From positions 1-35,546 of the IMG/VR virus record IMGVR_UViG_3300048837_000059: 35,546 bases of DNA; one strand, 5' to 3'. Below the pieces are notes generated by a model. That model was not told the DNA's origin, ran no database searches, and was given only the letters and a program-made list of their open reading frames with translations. Shown piece after piece: positions 1 through 35,546 of this stretch. This DNA comes from a virus. A program made the position numbers and the translations under genes. Position 1 is the first letter of the stretch, and each line of letters starts with the position of its first letter.

Positions 1-367
1 TTTCAATTCCTTTGCTTTTCATATATAAATAGTTCTTCATTCCTTGCTCTGCCGAAAACTCTATTTCTTCTTTACTAGGTTTTTGTCCAAACTTGCCAGG
101 TATTACATCTAGGTTAATTATATTTATCGACTTGCTTTTTACTTTGCTAACTTCCTTTTTTATGTATTCAACATACTCGTCTAAATCAATTTGTTTGTTT
201 TTAGTCCAGGCTGTAAATGCTCCAGAATCTATTAGAATGTTTCTATCTGCAAATTGTGTATCATTGCACTTTTTAACATAAGCATAACTCCAAAGAATGT
301 TACTTGCTCCATTTTTTGCTACCCATTTAGCTTCTGTGATTCCAGTACACGAAAAAAACATTCTCAT
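1..367 (-). CDS. dpdA: DpdA-type 7-deazaguanine DNA transglycosylase, N-terminal part
   Basis: This is the first 122 codons of a tRNA-guanine-transglycosylase-like protein that runs off the left edge. Enzymes of this family exchange guanine in DNA for a 7-deazaguanine base. The ATG at 367 overlaps the acetyltransferase stop as ATGA. Visible landmarks are the start MRMFFSCTG, the segment ILIDSGAFTAW near residues 47-57 whose Asp corresponds to the TGT catalytic DSG motif, and INLDVIPG near residues 83-90. The reading frame continues at the right edge of the window (35546 downward), where the matching C-terminal half lies. The joined protein would be about 260 residues, or 257 if a 9-bp repeated end is collapsed, which is short but within the range of phage DpdA proteins. 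It follows queF and a GNAT gene in one coupled operon. The family assignment rests on motifs recalled from memory, not on a search. Confidence 0.85.
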   Translation of the reverse strand, partial: MRMFFSCTGITEAKWVAKNGASNILWSYAYVKKCNDTQFADRNILIDSGAFTAWTKNKQIDLDEYVEYIKKEVSKVKSKSINIINLDVIPGKFGQKPSKEEIEFSAEQGMKNYLYMKSKGIE

Positions 368-774
368 TTTTTATATGCCCATATATTTAAATTACGTTTT
401 CTGCCTTTTAATACTCCTAAATGTTTAAATCCATAATTTTTATAAAATTCATTACTTGCATTATCTATTGGACACTTCAGAACAATTATTCCTCGATTAG
501 ATAAGGATTTAATTAACTGAGAACCAATTCCTTTTTTTTTATAATCTTCTCTGACAACTATTTCATATAAAGTAATTGTCTTGTTCTTTTTTTTATGAAA
601 TTTACACAACCCAACAATTTCTCCGTCTTGTTTATAAACTAATAATTCTTTATTTTTAATTGATTCTCTAACTGCTGGTTTTAGTACAAATCCAACTTCT
701 TTTGAATATTTATTAAACAATTTATAAATTTTGTCTAATTCTTCTTCATCGTAAAACGCTTTATTTTCAATCAT
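364..774 (-). CDS. GNAT-family N-acetyltransferase in the preQ1/DpdA operon
   Basis: This 136-residue protein has the GNAT acetyl-CoA-binding core. Motif A is near residues 72-90, with a V-V-x-x-x-Y-K-K-K-G-I-G stretch whose glycines (82 and 84) bind the CoA pyrophosphate. Motif B is near 105-116, with an N-x-x-F-Y-x-x-Y-G-F stretch. It overlaps queF upstream by 4 nt (771-774) and dpdA downstream by 4 nt (364-367), so it is very likely translated in step with both. GNAT enzymes acylate primary amines. preQ1, the QueF product, carries a primary aminomethyl group, so the base itself, or the base once in DNA, is an attractive substrate. That is inference from context. It could instead acetylate a host protein or a sugar from the upstream module. 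Confidence 0.85.
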   Translation of the reverse strand: MIENKAFYDEEELDKIYKLFNKYSKEVGFVLKPAVRESIKNKELLVYKQDGEIVGLCKFHKKKNKTITLYEIVVREDYKKKGIGSQLIKSLSNRGIIVLKCPIDNASNEFYKNYGFKHLGVLKGRKRNLNIWAYKK

Positions 775-1241
775 TTCTTCATATCGAAACTTCTGAATAG
801 ATATTCATACTTTTCGTAGTCTCCTTTTATCACTAAAGGCTTAATTGCTATTCCTCCTCTGCTATTAAAGTCTCCGTACACTCTTAATGCTTTGGGATTA
901 ATTTTCTCTACAATATCTTTCGCAATTCTATTCATACAATCCTCGTGAAATTCTCCATGGTTTCTAAAACTGTACAGATAAAGTTTCAAAGATTTGCTTT
1001 CTATCATTAATTTGTCTGGAACGTAAACTATCTCCACCTTTGCCCAGTCTGGTTGTCCTGTTACTGGACATAGACTTGTAAACTCGATTTCTGGCATTAC
1101 GAAAGGAACTAGATAGTCTGTGTCTTGGTGTAAATTCGTAAATGTTTCCAATATCTCTTTATCTGGTTTATCAAATTCGTAGTTAGTATTCTTTCCTAGT
1201 TTTGTTAAATTAGTTGTGTTACTCATATTTTGTTGGGTCAT
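771..1241 (-). CDS. queF: NADPH-dependent 7-cyano-7-deazaguanine reductase QueF (type I)
   Basis: This enzyme reduces the nitrile of preQ0 to the aminomethyl group of preQ1 using NADPH. The 156-residue length fits the single-domain (B. subtilis-like) class. Key residues are visible: the nucleophile C58 in TSLCP, general acid D65 in GQPD, the QueF motif ESKSLKLY at 81-88 and substrate-binding H99/E100 in HGEFHE. The start chosen overlaps the queC end by 23 nt. A second Met at residue 6 (ATG at 1226) would shorten the overlap and cannot be excluded. Its presence predicts preQ1 rather than preQ0 as the base, or the precursor of the base, inserted into phage DNA. Confidence 0.97.
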   Translation of the reverse strand: MTQQNMSNTTNLTKLGKNTNYEFDKPDKEILETFTNLHQDTDYLVPFVMPEIEFTSLCPVTGQPDWAKVEIVYVPDKLMIESKSLKLYLYSFRNHGEFHEDCMNRIAKDIVEKINPKALRVYGDFNSRGGIAIKPLVIKGDYEKYEYLFRSFDMKK

Positions 1242-1890
1242 TTATTTTAAGTAGTTCAAACGCCTCTTTTCTCTCTACACAAGTTCCGCACTTTCCACAA
1301 TGTAATTCTCCTCCTTTATAACAAGACCAAGACTTTTCGAAAGGTACTTGTAACATTTCTCCGATATTAACTATTTCTGATTTACTAATCTCAACAAACG
1401 GAGCAAAAACTTCAACATCTCCGTAATCTTTAGTCGCTAATTGTGAGCAAGTATTTACTGCACTTATAAATTCCTTTCTACAATCTGGATAGATTGCGTG
1501 GTCTCCTGAGTGAACTCCTGTTATTACTGTATTAAATCCAATAGAAACTGCCCAAGCTATTGCAATGTTTAACATAATCGCATTTCTATTAGGCACAACT
1601 GTTGAACGCATTGTTTCATCTGTGTAATGTCCTTCTGGTACTTCTCTTTCATCTGTTAGGCTTGAAGACAACAATTCAGTTAAGACTGTTGAATCTACTA
1701 TCTTGTGTTCTATCTTTAATTCCTCACAGACTTGTTTTGCGTAATCCAGTTCCTTTTTGTGCTTCTGACCATAATTAAAAGAAATTGCTTTCACTTCTTT
1801 ATATTTCGCCATTGACCAATATAAGGCAGTTAAGCTATCCATTCCTCCTGAATAAATTACTACCACCTTTTTGTCTTTGTGTAGAAGCAT
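1219..1890 (-). CDS. queC: 7-cyano-7-deazaguanine (preQ0) synthase QueC
   Basis: This ATP-dependent enzyme converts 7-carboxy-7-deazaguanine to preQ0 with ammonia. The 223-residue protein has the PP-loop ATPase motif SGGMDS at residues 14-19 and the C-terminal zinc site with four cysteines (about C190, C198, C201, C204), both diagnostic for QueC. Length is normal for the family. It starts 2 nt after the PRT-FolE stop and its 3' end overlaps queF, so it is in the middle of the 7-deazaguanine operon. No amidotransferase extension is present, so this is plain QueC and not the Gat-QueC fusion used by phages that make archaeosine-like bases. Confidence 0.97.
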   Translation of the reverse strand: MLLHKDKKVVVIYSGGMDSLTALYWSMAKYKEVKAISFNYGQKHKKELDYAKQVCEELKIEHKIVDSTVLTELLSSSLTDEREVPEGHYTDETMRSTVVPNRNAIMLNIAIAWAVSIGFNTVITGVHSGDHAIYPDCRKEFISAVNTCSQLATKDYGDVEVFAPFVEISKSEIVNIGEMLQVPFEKSWSCYKGGELHCGKCGTCVERKEAFELLKINDPTKYE

Positions 1891-1892
1891 TT

Positions 1893-2756
1893 TTATTTAA
1901 TAAGATTTAAAAATTCCTCCTTAGCACTTGCGTCTTGTCTAAACACTCCTTTAATCTCGCTCGTTATCGTTTTAGAGTTAATCTTTTTAACTCCTCTCAT
2001 TACCATACACAAGTGAGTTCCTTCTACTACTACAATCACTCCAACAGGTTTTAATTCTTCTTGAATAAATTCTGCAATTTGTTTCGTCATTCTTTCTTGT
2101 ATTTGCAATCTTCTCGAATAAGCTTCAACTATTCTTGCAAACTTTGAAAGTCCTAAAACTTTTCCGTTTGGAATATATCCTATATGAACCTTACCAAAGA
2201 ACGGCACCATGTGATGTTCACAATGTGAAAAATAATCAATGTCTTTAACTACTATCATTTGGTCATAATTCTCACTATCAAATGTTTTTATAGTTGATTC
2301 TAAATCTGCTTCGTATCCACCGAATAATTCTCCATAAGCCTTTATTACTCTTTTAGGTGTTTCTAATAGTCCTCCTCTGTTTGGGTCTTCTCCGATATAT
2401 TCTAAAATCCTTACAATGTTTTCTTCTATCGTTTCGTCTTTTTCCCAAGGAAATACAATCCACTTATCTTTGAACTCTGGCTGTTCTATTTTGTTGAATA
2501 AAACAAAATGGTCAAATCCTTGCTCTTTATACTTTGCCATCGTTCTACCTGAATCTATTAAATCATCAACTATTAATGTTTCTCCAACTTTTATTTCTGC
2601 TTCATTTACTTCTGGTATGTCAAAAAGTTCCTGTATTCTTTTAACTACTTGGTTTCCTCCTCTTGGTATTCCGTAAATATTTACAAAACCTTCGAACTCT
2701 TGTTTTCTGCTGTAAATAATATCGCTTATCTCATATTCCGTAACAAAATACTTCAT
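1893..2756 (-). CDS. folE: Phosphoribosyltransferase-GTP cyclohydrolase I (FolE) fusion
   Basis: This is a two-domain protein of 287 residues. Residues 1-106 look like a type I phosphoribosyltransferase: the PRPP-binding motif [10 protein letters not shown] at 63-72, an N-terminal YGIPRGG, and a W-I-x-x-P-W-E segment at 99-105 that recalls the base-covering WIxxPWD of xanthine-guanine PRT (Gpt). Residues 107-287 are GTP cyclohydrolase I, with zinc ligands C179, H182 and C250 in the [12 protein letters not shown] and LCMVMRG contexts and the [17 protein letters not shown] signature near 202-218. FolE makes dihydroneopterin triphosphate from GTP, the entry step to 7-deazaguanines. The PRT domain may regenerate GMP from guanine, including guanine released by DpdA, but that role is inferred. 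The gene lies 16 nt after queE and 2 nt before queC. Confidence 0.93.
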
Positions 2757-2772
2757 ATTGTGGATAACTAAA

Positions 2773-3582
2773 TTAAATTCCTCTTAATGCTCCGTTGAAA
2801 ATTATATTTTGTAATCTCGGAGTCGTTTGTAAGTTATATTTCAAAAGTGAATCTCTTATCGCTTCGTATGCTACAAAGTTTTCTTCTTTGGTAACTCCTT
2901 CTGGCATAATCCAAATTTGTTCTCTTGGTAAGAATCCGTACTCTGCTAAAACATCTTCAATGTCCTGTGGACTACTGCAAACAAACTTGAAACAAGAACT
3001 TGGCTTTGACGAAATCGCTAGTAAAGCATTCTCTCTAAATCTTGCAATTTTAGAGTTTCCGCTACTATCTAATTTAGGTGAACAGTTAAAATGAACATTA
3101 GGATTTGTTAAAAGTTCCTCTTTAGGCAATATAGTTCCGTTAGTTTCAATCTCTACTTCAAAGTCTGGATTTTCTTCGATCCAAGTTACTATCTCTTTTT
3201 GTTGTAACATTGGCTCACCTCCTGTGAAAACGATTCTTTTTACTTCTGTATCAATTCCTTTACTTCTTTGGTCATCGAAAACAGATTCTCTCAAATCCGT
3301 TCTGTTTAGTAATTTAGGTTCGCTCCAAAATTCTTTTTCATCTGCTTTCCAAGTGTACCAAGTATCGCACCAGCTACACCTTAAATTGCACTTATGAAGT
3401 CTAACGAAAGTAGTTACTTTTCCTAATCTCGTTCCTTCTCCTTGTATTGTTGTGAAAATCCAATCACCTGACACCAAGAAAGTGTCTGGAACTGGTTTCA
3501 AGTTATTAATTTCTTCTTTTGTAGGTTTGTATCCTCCTGAACAATCACTTGCTTTCAAAGGTGTTTGATTTATTGGTTCCAC
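2773..3582 (-). CDS. queE: 7-carboxy-7-deazaguanine synthase QueE (radical SAM)
   Basis: This radical SAM enzyme contracts 6-carboxy-tetrahydropterin to 7-carboxy-7-deazaguanine. The CX3CX2C cluster motif is at C65, C69 and C72 in [12 protein letters not shown]. The SAM-binding GGEP is at 121-124, and a QueE-type N-terminal segment, TIQGEG, precedes the cluster. At 269 residues it is slightly longer than many QueE proteins because of about 35 extra N-terminal residues, for which no better start is available. It overlaps queD by 13 nt upstream and is followed by the PRT-FolE gene. Confidence 0.96.
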
Positions 3583-3959
3583 GCTTGAGAATTACTTGTT
3601 TCATTTATTTTAAGTACTGCTTTTAATCCTGTTTTTTCTTCAATCAAGTCTCTTAATGCAATGATTATGTTTTCAACACTTGGTATGTACTCTACAACTC
3701 GAAATCCTGGTAAATTTTCTACCGTCTTTAAGAATGGGTCTTCTTCATAAATTAAAAACTGATGGTCTAAATAGTCGTTTATAATTCTTTTAATATCTCC
3801 GAAATCAATTACAAATCCTTTCTGGTCGTCAATTTGTTCTTCTTCAAAATCTATAATAACTTCTATCTGGTAATTGTGTCCGTGAAAATTAAAGCAACCT
3901 CCTTTGTGGTTTGGTAGTCTGTGTCCTGTTGATACTTCTATGTATTTTTTTAGTTTCAT
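3570..3959 (-). CDS. queD: 6-carboxy-5,6,7,8-tetrahydropterin synthase QueD
   Basis: This PTPS-family enzyme of 129 residues turns dihydroneopterin triphosphate, the FolE product, into 6-carboxy-tetrahydropterin. Zinc ligands H13, H26 and H28 are visible (HRLPNH, FHGHNY), with the catalytic Cys at 22 and the DH pair at 65-66 in LDHQFL. The start ATG at 3959 overlaps the stop of the upstream 61-residue gene as ATGA. Its 3' end overlaps queE by 13 nt. It is the first recognisable enzyme gene of the deazaguanine operon. Confidence 0.96.
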   Translation of the reverse strand: MKLKKYIEVSTGHRLPNHKGGCFNFHGHNYQIEVIIDFEEEQIDDQKGFVIDFGDIKRIINDYLDHQFLIYEEDPFLKTVENLPGFRVVEYIPSVENIIIALRDLIEEKTGLKAVLKINETSNSQAWNQ

Positions 3960-4141
3960 TTTTTCTTTTTAACTGTTCTTTTCTTTTTTACTGTCTTCAC
4001 TTCTTCCACAACTTCAACTAAATTCATATCGACTAACTTCGTTTTCCTTGCTTCTGATACTTCTAATTCTTCTCCGATTTCAACACTTCTTTTTTCTACA
4101 ATATCGAAGTATTTCCTCTTTACTCTTATTTTATATTTCAT
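3956..4141 (-). CDS. Small Lys-rich protein, paralogue of the glycosyltransferase C-terminal tail
   Basis: This 61-residue protein has a short mixed domain (residues 1-47) followed by a very basic tail rich in Lys pairs (48-61). The domain pattern, basic strand, KR-x-V-E-I-G-E-E-L-E-V-S-x-A-R-x-x-K-L and a final hydrophobic strand, closely resembles the last 45 or so residues of the glycosyltransferase encoded just upstream (G-K-R-I-L-K-N-R-E-L-E-V-S-x-M-R-A-K-E-L). The two look like copies of one module. It overlaps queD by 4 nt (ATGA) and starts 5 nt after the glycosyltransferase stop. Function is unknown. The basic tail could bind nucleic acid. Confidence 0.75.
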   Translation of the reverse strand: MKYKIRVKRKYFDIVEKRSVEIGEELEVSEARKTKLVDMNLVEVVEEVKTVKKKRTVKKKK

Positions 4142-4145
4142 AATA

Positions 4146-5252
4146 TTAATTAATAAATATTGCTACACCTTTTTCGATTAATTCTTTTGCTCTCATTTTA
4201 CTCACTTCTAGCTCTCTGTTTTTGAGTATTCTCTTACCTAAAAGTATATCATTATATGTTCTGATTGTCTTTACTGTTATAGTTTCTGGCTCTATTATTT
4301 TGGTCTTTTTTTCCTTTCCAACCTTTCCAATAAGCTCAATCCAAGCTTCTTCTGTGCCAACTGGTTTATGTTCAAACTTTGGAATATTATTATAAATTTT
4401 CCGTATAAATTTATCATCAAACTTCTTTAGTTCCATGTCTAAAATGTAACCAGTTTTTCCTTCTTCGATTTGTTCGTAGGCATTTTTAAAGTTCGTTGCA
4501 ATTACTGGCGTTCCTACCGCCAAAGATTCCATAATAGCAAAAGCCCAGCCTTCAGTATCTGATAATTGAACTGAATAATCTGCGTCTGCTACCATATGTT
4601 CCAAGCCTTTTCCGTTTCCTCTAAACACCACTTCCTGAACTCCTTTTAGTTGATTCTTAATCCTATCTACATAAGCTTTGTCTAATCCATCTCCGTAAAT
4701 ATTCCAGTCAAAAGGTATTCCTGATTCTTTTAGCTTTAAAGCCATTTTTACAATCCTTGAAAATCCTTTTTCTTTCCCAATCCTTGAAGTCGTTATTAAC
4801 CTCAATACTCTTTCTGGTTTTACTTCATCATCTAATAAGTAGTGAATCACTTTGCACTTTTCTCCGTACCTTTCCTCGAAAGTCTTCGCAATGTTTTCTC
4901 CTCCTGCCCAATGTTCACTAACTTCTTCCAATCTTTGGTACTTAAAGTTCCAATGCTTCTCAATTCCTTGAAAGTCTGCGTGTACCATTTGAACATATTT
5001 CTTCGCTTTAATGTTCTTAACTGGTCTTTTTCCCCAAGCACTTGAAAAAATACACAAGTCTGTTTCGAATTTCTGACCAGTATAAATTACTACATCAACA
5101 TATTTTCGTAACTTCGCAAGTTCTCCTGAATCTCCTCCATCACAAACAAAAGTTATGTCATAATATCTAGACATTCTCTTGCAGAAGTTTAAGTTAAAGG
5201 ATTCAACTCCTCCTGTTTGATTTTGGTAAGAGTGATATAAAATTATTCGCAT
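4146..5252 (-). CDS. GT4-family (GT-B fold) glycosyltransferase with extra C-terminal module
   Basis: This 368-residue protein has the Glycos_transf_1 C-domain. Near the middle is S-R-I-G-K-E-K-G-F, followed by the nucleotide-sugar-binding E-x7-E motif in EGWAFAIMESLAVGTP and a T-G-Y-I-L segment. The N-domain begins MRIILYHSYQNQTGGVESFN, which is typical of GT4 enzymes. Residues from about 320 on form an added module that resembles the 61-residue protein encoded next. It overlaps the ParB-like gene by 10 nt and is followed by the queD operon. The acceptor is unknown: a surface glycan is possible, but so is the modified base, since tRNA queuosine is glycosylated by enzymes of similar fold. The latter is speculation. 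Confidence 0.88.
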   Translation of the reverse strand: MRIILYHSYQNQTGGVESFNLNFCKRMSRYYDITFVCDGGDSGELAKLRKYVDVVIYTGQKFETDLCIFSSAWGKRPVKNIKAKKYVQMVHADFQGIEKHWNFKYQRLEEVSEHWAGGENIAKTFEERYGEKCKVIHYLLDDEVKPERVLRLITTSRIGKEKGFSRIVKMALKLKESGIPFDWNIYGDGLDKAYVDRIKNQLKGVQEVVFRGNGKGLEHMVADADYSVQLSDTEGWAFAIMESLAVGTPVIATNFKNAYEQIEEGKTGYILDMELKKFDDKFIRKIYNNIPKFEHKPVGTEEAWIELIGKVGKEKKTKIIEPETITVKTIRTYNDILLGKRILKNRELEVSKMRAKELIEKGVAIFIN

Positions 5253-5668
5253 ATAAGTAAGTAACAGTATTTTATTGATAAAGCGTTCATTGCACTTATT
5301 CTATGACTTCCATCTATTAAAACGTATTTTCCATCTTCTTCATAAGCTGTTAGTCCTCCGTAAATCTTTCCGTTTATCACTCTTAACTTGTCTTCTTTTT
5401 CTTCTGAGTATCCGTTTTTAATACTTTTAATTATCTCTCTAAACTTCTGTGTCCTATCTAGTAAATCTTCTTCTGTGTATAAGCTTTTCCAAACGTGTCC
5501 GTGTTTATCCAAGTTCTCTTTTAACCATTTATAATAACCACTTTCTTTGAGTTCTGTTTTACTATCTGCTAATTCTTTAGCATATCCCATAAAAGGTATA
5601 TCTAAAATAGGCTCTAACTTTCCAAATTGTTTTGTGTAAATTTCTTTAATTGGTACTAACTTCCGCAT
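5243..5668 (-). CDS. ParB/sulfiredoxin-like domain protein in sugar module
   Basis: This 141-residue protein has a ParB-N-like end: after a G-K-Y-V-L-I strand comes DGSHRISAMNAL (about residues 118-129), the D-G-x-H-R signature of the ParB/Srx nucleotide-binding fold. ParB-like single domains occur beside methyltransferases and glycosyltransferases in surface-polysaccharide and phage loci, and their role there is unclear. The rest of the protein is charged and unrecognised. It overlaps the glycosyltransferase start by 10 nt, and its own start lies inside the 3' end of a small membrane ORF. DNA segregation is unlikely, as no ParA is present. Confidence 0.7.
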   Translation of the reverse strand: MRKLVPIKEIYTKQFGKLEPILDIPFMGYAKELADSKTELKESGYYKWLKENLDKHGHVWKSLYTEEDLLDRTQKFREIIKSIKNGYSEEKEDKLRVINGKIYGGLTAYEEDGKYVLIDGSHRISAMNALSIKYCYLLICE

Positions 5669-5765
5669 TGTCTAATAATTGAAATACTATTGCCAATAAA
5701 ATTCCGCCAACTCCTAGCTCTAAATTTGTCCAAGCAACTAGCATTAAATAAAATAAAATTATCAT
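5646..5765 (-). CDS. Putative 39-residue membrane microprotein
   Basis: A 40-codon ATG reading frame fills the only sizeable gap in the sugar module, starting 6 nt after the methyltransferase stop and overlapping the ParB-like gene by 23 nt. The product begins MIILFYLMLVAW and is almost wholly hydrophobic up to about residue 31, consistent with one long or two short membrane segments. Gap filling and overlap, as in the neighbouring genes, support it. The length is short enough that chance cannot be excluded. No homologue is recognised. Confidence 0.45.
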   Translation of the reverse strand: MIILFYLMLVAWTNLELGVGGILLAIVFQLLDNAEVSTN

Positions 5766-5771
5766 CAATCT

Positions 5772-6287
5772 TCAATAACATTTAAAAACTTTTCTTATTG
5801 ATTTTGGGTCGTGTGGACTTGGTGATACTCCGTAACATAAACAATTCTTGTAATACTTATCCACAATTTTATAAGTCTGCTCTTCTGTTTTGGTATGGTA
5901 AATCGGAGAACTTCCTTTAACTGGGTATTCCATTATCAAAACCTTCGCCAGTTTAGAGTAATGCTTAACTGCTCTCTCGAAATCTTCGTAATCTAAAATA
6001 TGAAAAGTTGATAACGAAATCGCTATATCAACCTTCTCCTTCCAATCAAACAAATTCATTAATCTAAAGTCGGCTTTAGGAAAATTCTTCTTCGCTAATT
6101 CTATGTATTCTTTGCTTGTGTCTATTCCTGTATAACTTTCAATTTCTTGAAGCTCTAATAATGGTAGAAGCAATCCTTCGTTGCAACCAATATCTAACAC
6201 CTTTTTTCCAGTCCAAAAGCTTTCTGGCTCCGTTATAGCGTTAAATTTAAGCAATATCTTCTCCTCTGTCTGGTACTTTGGTGTCAT
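5772..6287 (-). CDS. Class I SAM-dependent methyltransferase
   Basis: This 171-residue protein has the Rossmann methyltransferase motif I, VLDIGCNEG, near residue 30. Motif II has an acidic residue in Y-T-G-I-D, which binds the SAM ribose, and there is a later I-A-I-S-L-S-T-F-H strand (motif IV region). It is a compact single-domain enzyme of the Methyltransf_11/25 type. The ATG overlaps the epimerase stop by 4 nt. In this context it probably methylates a sugar, or a small molecule made by the module. A role in DNA modification is possible but has no direct support. Confidence 0.85.
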   Translation of the reverse strand: MTPKYQTEEKILLKFNAITEPESFWTGKKVLDIGCNEGLLLPLLELQEIESYTGIDTSKEYIELAKKNFPKADFRLMNLFDWKEKVDIAISLSTFHILDYEDFERAVKHYSKLAKVLIMEYPVKGSSPIYHTKTEEQTYKIVDKYYKNCLCYGVSPSPHDPKSIRKVFKCY

Positions 6288-7030
6288 ATTAGTATTAAAG
6301 ATGAACTAGGTAATTTAAAATACTTTTCAAGTTTCTCAACACTTCCAACACTTATTGAGAATCCTTTTCTTTCTTTTATAGTGTAACTCATTTGAATATT
6401 TAAATCCTCAAAGTATTCAATCAAAGCTCTTGTGTTTCTCGGAACTCCTGAACACAGATTAAAAGTTCCATAAACTTCGTTCGTTAATCCTTCTTCTAAT
6501 ATTCTTACAACATCTGAAACGTGAACATAATCTCTGTAATAATTATCTGGATTATATATCTCAATCGGTCTTCCTGTTAGAAGTTTATTAATTAACGAAT
6601 CACTAAATCCTTGTCCGTAAACATTAAAGATTCTAAATACCAAAGCGTCATCTCCTAAAAATTGTTCTGCGTCATATTTTGTTTTTGCATATAAACTTCT
6701 CGGATTTATGTTCTCTGTCTCCTTGTTTGGTAGCACTTCTTTCTGGTCGTATATTGAACAGGTTGAAGCGAATACGAATTTTTTAAGTCCATATTCTTTC
6801 GCTGTTTCATACATCACTTTCGTTGCTTCTGTGTTTACCTGCTTTAGCTTCGCAACATCATCTCCAAAAGTTAATCCTGCTAAATGTATTATTCTTTCTG
6901 GCTTTAACTTCTTGATATACCTCTCAACTACTTTGCTGTCTGTTAAATCCAATTCGTCTTTAGTCGGTCTTGCTCTTTGTATCTCTAAATGAGTTCCAAT
7001 TCTTCCACTCGAACCTGTGATTAAATTCAT
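6284..7030 (-). CDS. NAD-dependent sugar epimerase/dehydratase (extended SDR)
   Basis: This 248-residue protein starts with the NAD-binding glycine motif GSSGRIG and carries the SDR catalytic pair Y-x-x-x-K in LYAKTKYD, preceded by the conserved serine/threonine in F-A-S-T-C-S-I-Y. It is shorter than most sugar-nucleotide epimerases (about 310 residues). The C-terminal substrate domain appears reduced. Expected substrate is a nucleotide sugar, for example the 4-keto product of the 4,6-dehydratase encoded just upstream, with which it overlaps by 4 nt. It is followed by a methyltransferase, also with a 4-nt overlap. Confidence 0.88.
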   Translation of the reverse strand: MNLITGSSGRIGTHLEIQRARPTKDELDLTDSKVVERYIKKLKPERIIHLAGLTFGDDVAKLKQVNTEATKVMYETAKEYGLKKFVFASTCSIYDQKEVLPNKETENINPRSLYAKTKYDAEQFLGDDALVFRIFNVYGQGFSDSLINKLLTGRPIEIYNPDNYYRDYVHVSDVVRILEEGLTNEVYGTFNLCSGVPRNTRALIEYFEDLNIQMSYTIKERKGFSISVGSVEKLEKYFKLPSSSLILI

Positions 7031-8028
7031 AATCCTAATTTTTTAAATAGATAAACAACATCTTTGTCTCCTACTTTGTGCTGTAAACTTTTCGCTAAAA
7101 ACTTCTCTAATATCTCTGGAACTCTTTTCTTGTTCTTAAAACATTCTTTAATCTTATAAACTGAATCATCTTCTGTTTTCTCCTTTACCATGTCTAATTC
7201 TTCAATCATCTTTTCGCCTTTCCTAAGTCCGACAATCTCTATTCCTGAATCCGATTTAGTTTTCTCTATTAATTTTTCAGCAAGTTCATAAATTGAATAA
7301 AGCTGACCCATGTCTAACCAATAAATTGAGCCTTGTTCTCCAATCTCTTTTGCTTTTAAGATTAAAGAAACTGCTTCGTTCTTGCTCATAAAATACCTGC
7401 GAATCTTTTTATGAGTTACTGTTAAATTCTTTCCGTCTTCAATTTGTTTTAGCCAAGTATTAACAACACTTCCGTTTGACTGAATCACGTTTCCGAATCT
7501 TACGCTTATTCCTCCTGCGTTCTCTACAATAAGTTCACACAACCTTTTTGTCATTCCCATATATGATGACGGATTAACTGCTTTGTCTGTTGATACCAAT
7601 ACAAAATTCTCTGCTTTTGAAAGTTTAATCATATTCATTACTCCACCGACATTATTGTTAAAAGCTTCTAATGGATTCTCTTGCATAAGTGGAACGTGCT
7701 TATATGCTGAGGCGTGTATTATCGTTTTAGGTTTAAAATCTTTGAGTATCTTTTTCATTGCAGGACTTTTCACGTCTGCAATTTTATAAGTGGCTTGTTT
7801 TCCTAACTCTTGTGAAATTTGAAATAGTCCATTCTCATACCAATCAACTATCAGAACTTCTGCGTTCAAGGAAATTAATTTTCTTGCTAATTCGCTTCCA
7901 ATACTTCCTGCTCCTCCTGTTACTAAAACTCTTTCGTTTATATTCTTTAATTCAATCTTTCGTTCTTTTCTACCAAGTAAGCCTAATATATCTTCATCAG
8001 TAAACTTCTTCAATGAACGGTATTTCAT
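7027..8028 (-). CDS. UDP-sugar 4,6-dehydratase/5-epimerase, PseB/FlaA1/CapD-like
   Basis: This 333-residue cytosolic member of the polysaccharide_biosynthesis_protein_2 family has the NAD site VTGGAGSIGSELARKL, the A-Y-K-H-V-P-L-M-Q segment, the S-T-D-K-A-V-N-P stretch, the catalytic MGMTKR, and FGNVIQSNGSV. The family makes UDP-4-keto-6-deoxy sugars from UDP-GlcNAc for pseudaminic acid, bacillosamine or capsule sugars. The N-terminal membrane part of WbpM-like proteins is absent. A short linker ending L-L-G-R-K-E precedes the Rossmann domain. A weak SD-like AAAAGG lies about 12 nt before the start, one of very few in this genome. It heads a run of coupled genes that leads into the queD operon. 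Confidence 0.92.
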   Translation of the reverse strand: MKYRSLKKFTDEDILGLLGRKERKIELKNINERVLVTGGAGSIGSELARKLISLNAEVLIVDWYENGLFQISQELGKQATYKIADVKSPAMKKILKDFKPKTIIHASAYKHVPLMQENPLEAFNNNVGGVMNMIKLSKAENFVLVSTDKAVNPSSYMGMTKRLCELIVENAGGISVRFGNVIQSNGSVVNTWLKQIEDGKNLTVTHKKIRRYFMSKNEAVSLILKAKEIGEQGSIYWLDMGQLYSIYELAEKLIEKTKSDSGIEIVGLRKGEKMIEELDMVKEKTEDDSVYKIKECFKNKKRVPEILEKFLAKSLQHKVGDKDVVYLFKKLGL

Positions 8029-8102
8029 AAATCTTGTACCTTTTAATTACATAATATATAGCCATAAGTTCACAAGTCGCACAAACCTGAAATTCTAAAT
8101 CG

Positions 8103-8309
8103 TCATATGTCAGAACGAAAGTCCTCATCTCTCTTATGTATCTCTAGCAGTTTTTGAAAGTTTCTGAAGTTAGGCTCTGAAGCTCCGTTTCTCCAGTTGT
8201 GAATAGTAGTGTTAGTTACTCCTATTTCTCTTGCGAGTCTTGTTAATCCAAACTTCTTTCCTGTTTGAATATCGAGTATTCTTTGTAATGTTTTTTGTGA
8301 GTAGTCCAT
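8103..8309 (-). CDS. Small helix-turn-helix DNA-binding protein (Cro/XRE-like)
   Basis: This 68-residue protein contains a helix-turn-helix near residues 19-45 (T-R-L-A-R-E-I-G-V-T-N-T-T-I-H-N-W-R-N-G), matching the XRE/Cro class. It is the only clear transcription regulator in the genome. No integrase or partner repressor is seen, so it may time the switch between early and later genes or control the sugar/deazaguanine operon directly downstream. That role is inferred from position. Confidence 0.8.
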   Translation of the reverse strand: MDYSQKTLQRILDIQTGKKFGLTRLAREIGVTNTTIHNWRNGASEPNFRNFQKLLEIHKRDEDFRSDI

Positions 8310-34154: not shown

Positions 34155-34554
34155 TTATTATTTTGACTGTGTAGTTTAATGGCTCGTTGCCTGAAGTAAC
34201 ATCAAGTCTTTGTTTTATACTGTACTCATTTTGGTATCTTCTCTCTAATAGCCAAGCAGACGACTGCCAAGTCTTGTTTCCACTTACTTTCTGAATATGA
34301 AATCTCTTAAAGTACATCTCCGCTTTTTTATCTGCCTCAGAAAACTCAACGTACCTGTTCTTCCATTTGTAAATAGTATCTTCTGCAATCGGTGTTAAAG
34401 CACACGAATCTTGTATGGTGCCACCTTCGATTCTGTAAGTCAGGAATAGATAAAGAGGTTCATTCTCGTATTGCTTTTTCTTTGACAAATATTCAGCAAC
34501 TGTACTTTCTAGAAAGAATTTAACTATCTCTTTATTGTATTTTGTTTTTCTCAT
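34096..34554 (-). CDS. terS: Terminase small subunit
   Basis: This 152-residue protein before terL has an N-terminal helix-turn-helix-like region (G-G-T-I-Q-D-S-C-A-L-T-P-I-A-E-D-T-I-Y-K-W, about 45-65) for pac-site recognition. Helical oligomer region and a Ser/Asp/Gly-rich tail follow. Sequence is divergent; position is the main support. Confidence 0.8.
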   Translation of the reverse strand: MRKTKYNKEIVKFFLESTVAEYLSKKKQYENEPLYLFLTYRIEGGTIQDSCALTPIAEDTIYKWKNRYVEFSEADKKAEMYFKRFHIQKVSGNKTWQSSAWLLERRYQNEYSIKQRLDVTSGNEPLNYTVKIINGNTSNDSSPKDTGSGEGL

Positions 34555-35105
34555 TGTTTGAAATTATGTCCACATTTAGGACAAGTAATTAATTTATCTT
34601 CTTTTTCGCTTTGAGATTCATCGTAATTACTTTGAAATTCGTCCCAATTAAAGTCAAACATTTTTATATAGTCATTTATCTGTTCTTCGTCATATCCAAA
34701 CAGTTCCTGAAGCTCTGTAACATCTTCTCCTTGCTTAACCATTTCTCCAATAATACTAGCTACCATTAATTCATCAACAGGAACTTTCTTCTGCTCTTTA
34801 ATAACCGTAATTGCTCTTGCTAGTTTATCGCTTATAGTTCCTAAATTGTTTATTCTTATTTCTTTGAAGTCCAATTCGTTACAAGCTTTCCATCTGTGAA
34901 ATCCGTCTAGTATCTCATAGTTATCTTTCGATAACTCTCTAACGGTAATTGCTTCGAACAAACCTTTCTTCTCAATCTCTGCTTTTATTTCCTCATATCT
35001 TTGTTTATTCTCTGTATTATCTTCAATACTTTCTTTAGGATTCCAAGTGTTAGGTCTTACTGCATTAATATCTACTATTAAATCTGTTCCTATTATTTTT
35101 TGCAT
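34551..35105 (-). CDS. ParB-like domain protein with C-terminal zinc finger
   Basis: This 184-residue protein has a ParB-N fold: V-R-P-N-T-W-N-P-K near 16-24 and the D-G-F-H-R-W-K-A-C signature near 68-76. A C-terminal C-P-K-C knuckle with a following H gives part of a zinc finger. ParB-like nuclease or CTPase proteins occur just before terminase genes in many siphoviruses and may mark DNA or aid packaging. It overlaps terS by 4 nt. This is the second ParB-like protein in the genome; they share only the domain signature. Confidence 0.82.
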   Translation of the reverse strand: MQKIIGTDLIVDINAVRPNTWNPKESIEDNTENKQRYEEIKAEIEKKGLFEAITVRELSKDNYEILDGFHRWKACNELDFKEIRINNLGTISDKLARAITVIKEQKKVPVDELMVASIIGEMVKQGEDVTELQELFGYDEEQINDYIKMFDFNWDEFQSNYDESQSEKEDKLITCPKCGHNFKQ

Positions 35106-35130: not shown

Positions 35131-35546
35131 TTAGTCCCATTCTACACCTTTTTTTTTCCAAAGCTCGGTTATAAGCTTCTCCTCTTTTAATATTTTTTCT
35201 GTGTTGTGCTTCCTGCCTCTTTCAACACTAGACCTTGTAATGTAAACCGACAACGGACTTTTGTTTTTAACATCAATTACGTTTCCCCATATAGGACCAG
35301 ACTTCCATTTTATTGAATCGGCAGAATAACAAGGAAACGTTTTTAAAACTTTTGTACTTGTTAATCCTAAGATATGAGTTTTGTGCGTATTTTTTACTAT
35401 GCTATAAACTTTGTTCAACCAATTAATCCTACTCTTTAAGCTAACATCGTTGGCAGGTGATATTCCTATATAGTTCGATGTTTTCATTACTTCTCTCAAC
35501 CATTTAAAATCCTCGTGTTGATGAAAAGTATGTATTGTTTCAATTC
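35131..35546 (-). CDS. dpdA: DpdA-type 7-deazaguanine DNA transglycosylase, C-terminal part
   Basis: This frame enters from the right edge and is in phase with the N-terminal half at 367-1. It begins I-E-T-I-H-T-F-H-Q-H-E-D-F-K-W-L, then I-G-I-S-P-A-N-D, T-H-I-L-G-L-T-S, F-P-C-Y-S-A-D-S-I-K-W, and ends with I-T-E-L-W-K-K-K-G-V-E-W-D. These match DpdA/TGT landmarks: the H-x-x-G region, the L-G barrel strand, the Y-S-x-D-S-x-x-W segment, and the typical x-W-D end. A TTG or ATG inside (35499, 35487) could look like a separate gene start, but the upstream sequence is clearly coding. The next gene, 25 nt downstream, is ParB-like and leads into the packaging genes. Confidence 0.88.
   Translation of the reverse strand, partial: IETIHTFHQHEDFKWLREVMKTSNYIGISPANDVSLKSRINWLNKVYSIVKNTHKTHILGLTSTKVLKTFPCYSADSIKWKSGPIWGNVIDVKNKSPLSVYITRSSVERGRKHNTEKILKEEKLITELWKKKGVEWD

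Follow-up and report, generated by a model that had tools for sequence, protein, structure and literature searches.

We analysed IMG/VR virus record IMGVR_UViG_3300048837_000059 in full, and this whole stretch of 35,546 bp is called the window below. On its minus strand (8028-4146) lies a cassette for the synthesis and transfer of a sugar, comprising a nucleoside diphosphate (NDP)-sugar 4,6-dehydratase, a short-chain dehydrogenase/reductase (SDR), a methyltransferase, a ParB-box protein and a GT4 glycosyltransferase (GT). It runs into a que/dpdA operon for the 7-deazaguanine base dPreQ1 (Table 1). An earlier note on this DNA had named these five genes, and we found all of them as open and intact open reading frames (ORFs), with families matched by Pfam apart from the ParB-box protein, which is treated below.

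Table 1. Features of the sugar cassette and of the dPreQ1 operon, in minus-strand gene order (positions in the window).
Feature	Coordinates	Strand	Length (aa)	Match or remark
Small helix-turn-helix protein	8309-8103	-		First in gene order, ahead of the dehydratase
NDP-sugar 4,6-dehydratase, soluble PglF/WlaL-type SDR	7027..8028	-	333	PF02719, E=1.3e-78
Compact SDR epimerase/C4-reductase	6284..7030	-	248	PF01370, E=2.8e-27
Class I S-adenosylmethionine methyltransferase	5772..6287	-	171	PF13649, E=2e-10
Hydrophobic micro-ORF	5646..5765	-	39	Listed from TTG at 5768, directly followed by ATG
ParB-box (DGSHR) protein	5243..5668	-	141	hhalign to DpdA-partner ParB profile
GT4 glycosyltransferase with C-terminal DUF7210-like domain	4146..5252	-	368	PF00534, 5e-18
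DUF7210-like protein, linker between GT and queD	3956..4141	-	61	Weak PF23843 match at 4025-4087; 4-nt overlap with queD
QueD	3570..3959	-		PF01242, 4e-21
QueE radical SAM enzyme	2773..3582	-		TIGR03963, 4.5e-30, below its cut-off
Phosphoribosyltransferase (PRT)-FolE fusion	1893..2756	-		PF01227, 3.5e-75; PF00156, 4e-4; same fusion in L198
QueC	1219..1890	-		PF06508, 1.4e-72
QueF (preQ0 to preQ1)	771..1241	-		PF14489, 2e-31; ESKSLK motif
GNAT acyltransferase	364..774	-		PF13508, 4.5e-13; 4-nt overlaps with dpdA and with queF
DpdA, 5' part	1..367	-		Continues at 35546; alignment of the joined reading
DpdA, 3' part	35131..35546	-		phrog_887, E=3e-18
ParB_N partner of DpdA	34551..35105	-		PF02195, 9e-10

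The best solved match of the dehydratase was WlaL of Campylobacter jejuni (5bju, E=6e-55). The alignment to 5bju included the Rossmann motif TGGAGSIGS and the active-site pattern STDKAV...MGMTKR, which holds the TDK, Met and Lys residues of a PglF-type UDP-GlcNAc 4,6-dehydratase. The product expected of PglF is UDP-4-keto-6-deoxy-N-acetylhexosamine. In contrast to the PglF/WlaL system, the phage enzyme has no membrane domain and the phage has no PglE-type aminotransferase. The SDR contains a glycine-rich motif (TGSSGRIG) and a YxxxK motif (YAKTK); the galE and rmlD models scored about equally, both below their cut-offs. The methyltransferase is presumed to be a sugar O-methyltransferase, and we infer that the cassette yields a methylated N-acetyl-deoxyhexose. 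A Pfam search of the module proteins gave no GtrA flippase or GtrB polyprenyl-phosphate transferase family, which sets the module apart from Gtr-type cassettes.

Several details of the earlier description were refined. Its “ParB-like” protein matched the DpdA-partner ParB profile (hhalign, E=1.7e-5) only over a 34-column DGSHR box, and Pfam gave no relevant match, a full ParB_N domain included. A single-sequence AlphaFold model of this protein was unusable (pLDDT 53). Overlaps between the genes are present as described, and the sole gap of the module, between the methyltransferase and the ParB-box gene, is filled by the micro-ORF, which had gone unmentioned. The spacing from the GT to the next gene is short as claimed, at 4 rather than 5 nt, and that gene does overlap queD. 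Starting at the dehydratase and ending at QueD, the successive junctions measure -4, -4, +6, -23, -10, +4 and -4 nt.

The GT has an EX7E motif and the presumed phosphate-binding residues R157 and K162, all invariant in a 22-sequence alignment in which the C-terminal tail was also conserved across the whole family. Its AlphaFold model (pLDDT 87) showed a GT-B fold followed by a distinct beta/alpha domain at the C-terminus, spanning approximately residues 324-366. Whole-chain TM-scores of the model were low (about 0.33, alignment rmsd about 17 Å, perhaps owing to a hinge), and only the GT-B/GT4 class was drawn from the model. By sequence, the nearest solved enzymes were TarM, GtfA/Gtf1 and SdgB, all of them cytosolic, with teichoic acid or protein as the acceptor. 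A profile made of two sequences, the window GT and that of Butyrivibrio phage Arawn, detected homologues in 29 viral IMG/VR contigs besides the Butyrivibrio phages (Arawn, Idris), and a genome scan added 4 more in rumen Butyrivibrio, Lachnospiraceae and Eubacterium contigs. These proteins resemble the window GT over the full length, including the C-terminal domain, at 26-35% identity. They differ in that many, indeed most, carry an N-terminal GT2 fusion (about 630 aa), that GT10, DUF4422 and NTP-transferase partners stand beside the GT2-GT4 fusion in rumen mini-clusters, that the viral loci have no adjoining dehydratase module, and that queC was absent from the 30 other GT-family records (the window itself scored 2e-74). 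Contigs L009-L037 represent a large rumen-phage family of such bifunctional GT2-GT4 proteins, in which the DUF7210-like tail is conserved, located ahead of HNH-terS; a scan of 99 neighbours of GT-family genes gave 10 matches to a terS family and 10 to an HNH family. Single-protein scans of viral contigs with the GT, the dehydratase and PRT-FolE as queries gave no matches.

Within dpdA, the two ends of the contig share 9 bp, and joining them gives one 257-aa DpdA reading (367 to 1 to 35131). Because this overlap closes the split dpdA, the phage genome looks complete and circularly permuted. Past ParB come apparent small terminase, TerL (PF04466), portal and head genes. Nearly all phage genes lie on one strand, with short gaps and tight packing, so the fact that the sugar genes run on into the que genes says little about a common function; for the same reason, co-directional overlap was rejected as a sign of a functional link. 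The two cassettes probably share a transcript. Megablast of the window against phages gave no match, and codon usage did not mark the module as foreign. With regard to the host of this uncultured phage, a Shine-Dalgarno-like motif was present at 1 of 44 gene starts in the window (background 17%). Dp-1 has such motifs at 12 of 13 starts, and a Cellulophaga phage at 2 of 19. The low usage in the window is like that of Bacteroidota phages and unlike that of Dp-1 or Arawn, and suggests that the host is Bacteroidota-like and not a Firmicute with teichoic acid. In contrast, the GT relatives with known hosts are Firmicutes phages.

The que/dpdA genes are predicted to form an operon of the preQ1 type, placing dPreQ1 in DNA, because the QueF shares 54% identity with its counterpart in Dp-1, a phage with this base in its DNA (PMC6884629). 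FolE, QueD, QueE and QueC are all present with DpdA in the same genome, and the reductase is QueF rather than QueF-L. Thus, the earlier view that a nucleotide-sugar and GT module adjoins a preQ1 operon held, by gene families and by this QueF; the run it described enters at queD and extends further through queE, PRT-folE, queC, queF, GNAT and dpdA. The operon resembles the systems of Dp-1, phiSM and Seurat (PMC6884629) in QueD, QueE, FolE, QueC, QueF, DpdA, ParB and the predicted dPreQ1, and differs from them in the PRT fused to FolE, the GNAT directly before dpdA and the sugar cassette upstream. The DpdA-ParB pair recurs in L004, L006, L038, L039, L040 and other loci. The PRT is separate and ahead of FolE in L041 (7901-8302), and is fused in the window (1893-2756) and in L198 (8835-9662). 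It could salvage guanine released by DpdA to GMP and hence GTP, the substrate of FolE.

The earlier note had suggested that the sugar decorates the modified base, that is, that the GT places it on dPreQ1 in DNA or on preQ1 before insertion. The module does run into queD within one gene run, and preQ1 offers a free amine; such continuity is expected in a nearly one-stranded genome. We examined whether the cassettes occur together among best-scoring loci, which are no random sample and whose viral members are partly fragments. The DpdA search gave 80 contigs (72 after removal of near-duplicates), most of which had que genes, and none of the 80 loci contained homologues of the window-type GT, dehydratase, SDR, methyltransferase or ParB-box protein within 10 kb. 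PF00534 occurred in 3 of 50 dpd records, isolates included, and near dpd only in L076; PF01370 occurred in 5 of 50, in every case at least 17 kb from dpdA; and in a nearly identical set of 50 records, PF00535 exceeded its cut-off in 7. The remark that sugar genes are rare in such phages was therefore fair for dpd phages, but the GT family is common in small rumen phages, where it is found without que genes. Similarly, no que/dpdA homologues were seen near the 66 viral contigs of the dehydratase search, and in the 50 records searched following the dehydratase and GNAT scans, queC never exceeded its cut-off. Among 80 relatives in a TerL search, two (L196, L198) had que genes directly ahead of terL. 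L198 keeps the operon with no sugar gene, in the order ParB-like protein, DpdA, QueC, QueD, a 208-aa gene, QueE, PRT-FolE fusion, apparent terS and TerL; the 208-aa gene (7503-8129) sits between QueD and QueE of this compact operon. Since the GT, DpdA, dehydratase and TerL searches find each cassette without the other, the two are, by this comparison, separable. The whole five-gene sugar set was found in no relative.

L076, a 59-kb unrelated dpd phage, is a partial counter-example: its GT4 gene (4843-5967) and a 354-aa gene (5925-6989) independently run into QueD. This GT4 is just over the PF20706 GT4-conflict cut-off (26.7 versus 26 bits) and showed no kinship to the window GT at the BLAST level. 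The window and L076 represent two lineages, and the likeness could be chance or signal. L076 also has a 252-aa gene between queF and dpdA. If the base were the acceptor, the glucosylation of T4 hydroxymethylcytosine would be the analogue, alongside the sugars carried by tRNA queuosine; however, the window GT matches no known DNA-GT family, and co-occurrence with dpd was seen nowhere beyond L076, the single partial exception to the lack of a recurrent linkage of GT and base genes. Glycosylation of the base is thus unsupported, the cassettes being apart in every other informative relative, and we regard it as quite improbable, retaining it at all because the L076 GT4 also runs into queD.

A better candidate than the GT for further modifying the preQ1 base, judging by gene neighbourhoods, is the GNAT. 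Of 72 dpd loci, 9 contained relatives of it, with 11 copies in total, each no more than two ORFs from a dpd gene. Overall, 31% of ORFs are this close, which gives a product of 2e-5 over the 9 loci, a figure that is somewhat weaker since two of these loci are related. The gene was found between FolE and QueF (L049, L051), between DpdA and ParB (L039) and in a tandem pair after DpdA (L091, L106), and no GNAT relatives were seen in the GT loci. A ten-member alignment was too diverse for scanning. A three-member profile found one new locus, L124, with no que/dpdA homologue within the 11 kb examined and no queC in its record. The simplest candidate reaction would be acylation of the preQ1 aminomethyl group to N-acyl-dPreQ1. 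Formylated and methylated dPreQ1 were reportedly described by Cui et al. in 2023.

As to the acceptor of the sugar, the relatives' neighbourhoods point to the virion. Among the closest viral relatives of the dehydratase, two (L127, L128) lie beside a head protease and an apparent major head protein; others follow a tail/connector protein (L131), a virion structural protein, ahead of a GT (L132), or a portal gene (L144). In L130 the relative immediately precedes ParB and terminase, and the same run includes a DegT-like aminotransferase, a PIG-L-like deacetylase and a GT-like gene. The window module occupies the same slot ahead of packaging genes, with the que/dpdA genes intervening. Dehydratase matches in wastewater “Staphylococcus/Listeria phage” records were excluded, being unannotated, marked unverified and perhaps host DNA. 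The absence of a membrane polyprenyl-phosphate transferase or flippase and the cytosolic nature of the nearest solved GTs also favour a virion acceptor. There is a precedent in mycobacteriophages: virion proteins of Che8, Corndog and Myrna are glycosylated by phage GTs (PMC12363180; PMC11256854), with capsid and tail acceptors (Freeman et al. 2023). The window differs from these phages in encoding its own dehydratase, SDR and methyltransferase and a GT4 with a DUF7210-like tail, and its virion glycosylation is a prediction. Because of the virion and packaging neighbourhoods and this precedent, a virion protein seems the likeliest acceptor, an assignment we make tentatively and at somewhat less than even confidence. 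It adds a third reading to the two of the earlier note, and of the three it agrees best with the relatives' neighbourhoods.

Several points weigh against a virion acceptor. The acceptor is a predicted one; several of the contigs that support it are fragmentary and stand as single instances; and of the dehydratase relatives with identities under about 35%, most belong to general sugar clusters, some of which may be host DNA. The DUF7210 match of the GT tail is weak (E=0.025; 1e-4 for one genome), the pre-terminase slot can also hold unrelated moron genes, and L076 has its own GT4 beside the base genes. Besides, kinship to TarM-like enzymes is equally compatible with a surface polymer and with a protein. 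TarM itself is a wall teichoic acid GlcNAc-transferase, and the rumen mini-clusters of GT2-GT4 fusion, GT10, DUF4422 and NTP-transferase resemble surface-glycan loci; together with the hydrophobic micro-ORF, these features suggest that the sugar could be placed on a host wall polymer or lipopolysaccharide, blocking superinfection or the loss of progeny to receptors. Yet genes for a flippase, a polyprenyl-phosphate GT or a membrane acceptor are absent from the module, the few Shine-Dalgarno-like starts point away from a teichoic-acid host, and the dehydratase relatives are placed among virion genes. We consider modification of the host surface doubtful, though a real second possibility. Less probable again is that the cassette is a recently acquired moron with another role, such as small-molecule glycosylation, or with none. 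Such a use would suit the ParB-box and micro-ORF genes, which have no known sugar role, and a five-gene set seen in no relative; against it, every ORF is intact, and the dehydratase, SDR and GT have retained their motifs. Comparing the named acceptors, we favour virion protein, then host surface, then base.

In the favoured reading, the PglF-type dehydratase would turn an NDP-N-acetylhexosamine (probably UDP-GlcNAc) into a 4-keto-6-deoxy sugar, which the SDR would then reduce or epimerise, and the methyltransferase may O-methylate it. The GT4 would transfer the sugar to its acceptor and so coat the particle, and its DUF7210-like domain may aid docking; roles for the micro-ORF and the ParB-box protein in these steps are putative, as is the order proposed. 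The que/dpdA genes would independently protect the DNA.

The comparison splits two cassettes that look like one operon, and brings to light a sizeable phage GT4 family with a DUF7210-like tail. The GNAT that recurs beside dpdA is the likelier source of a further-modified base. We know of no glycosylated 7-deazaguanine in DNA; a deoxy-sugar on dPreQ1 in phage DNA would be the first and, if it were true, L076 would be an independent second case. That about 4 kb of a 35-kb phage is spent on a self-made and self-transferred sugar suggests strong selection, for a coat on the particle or for reworking of the host.

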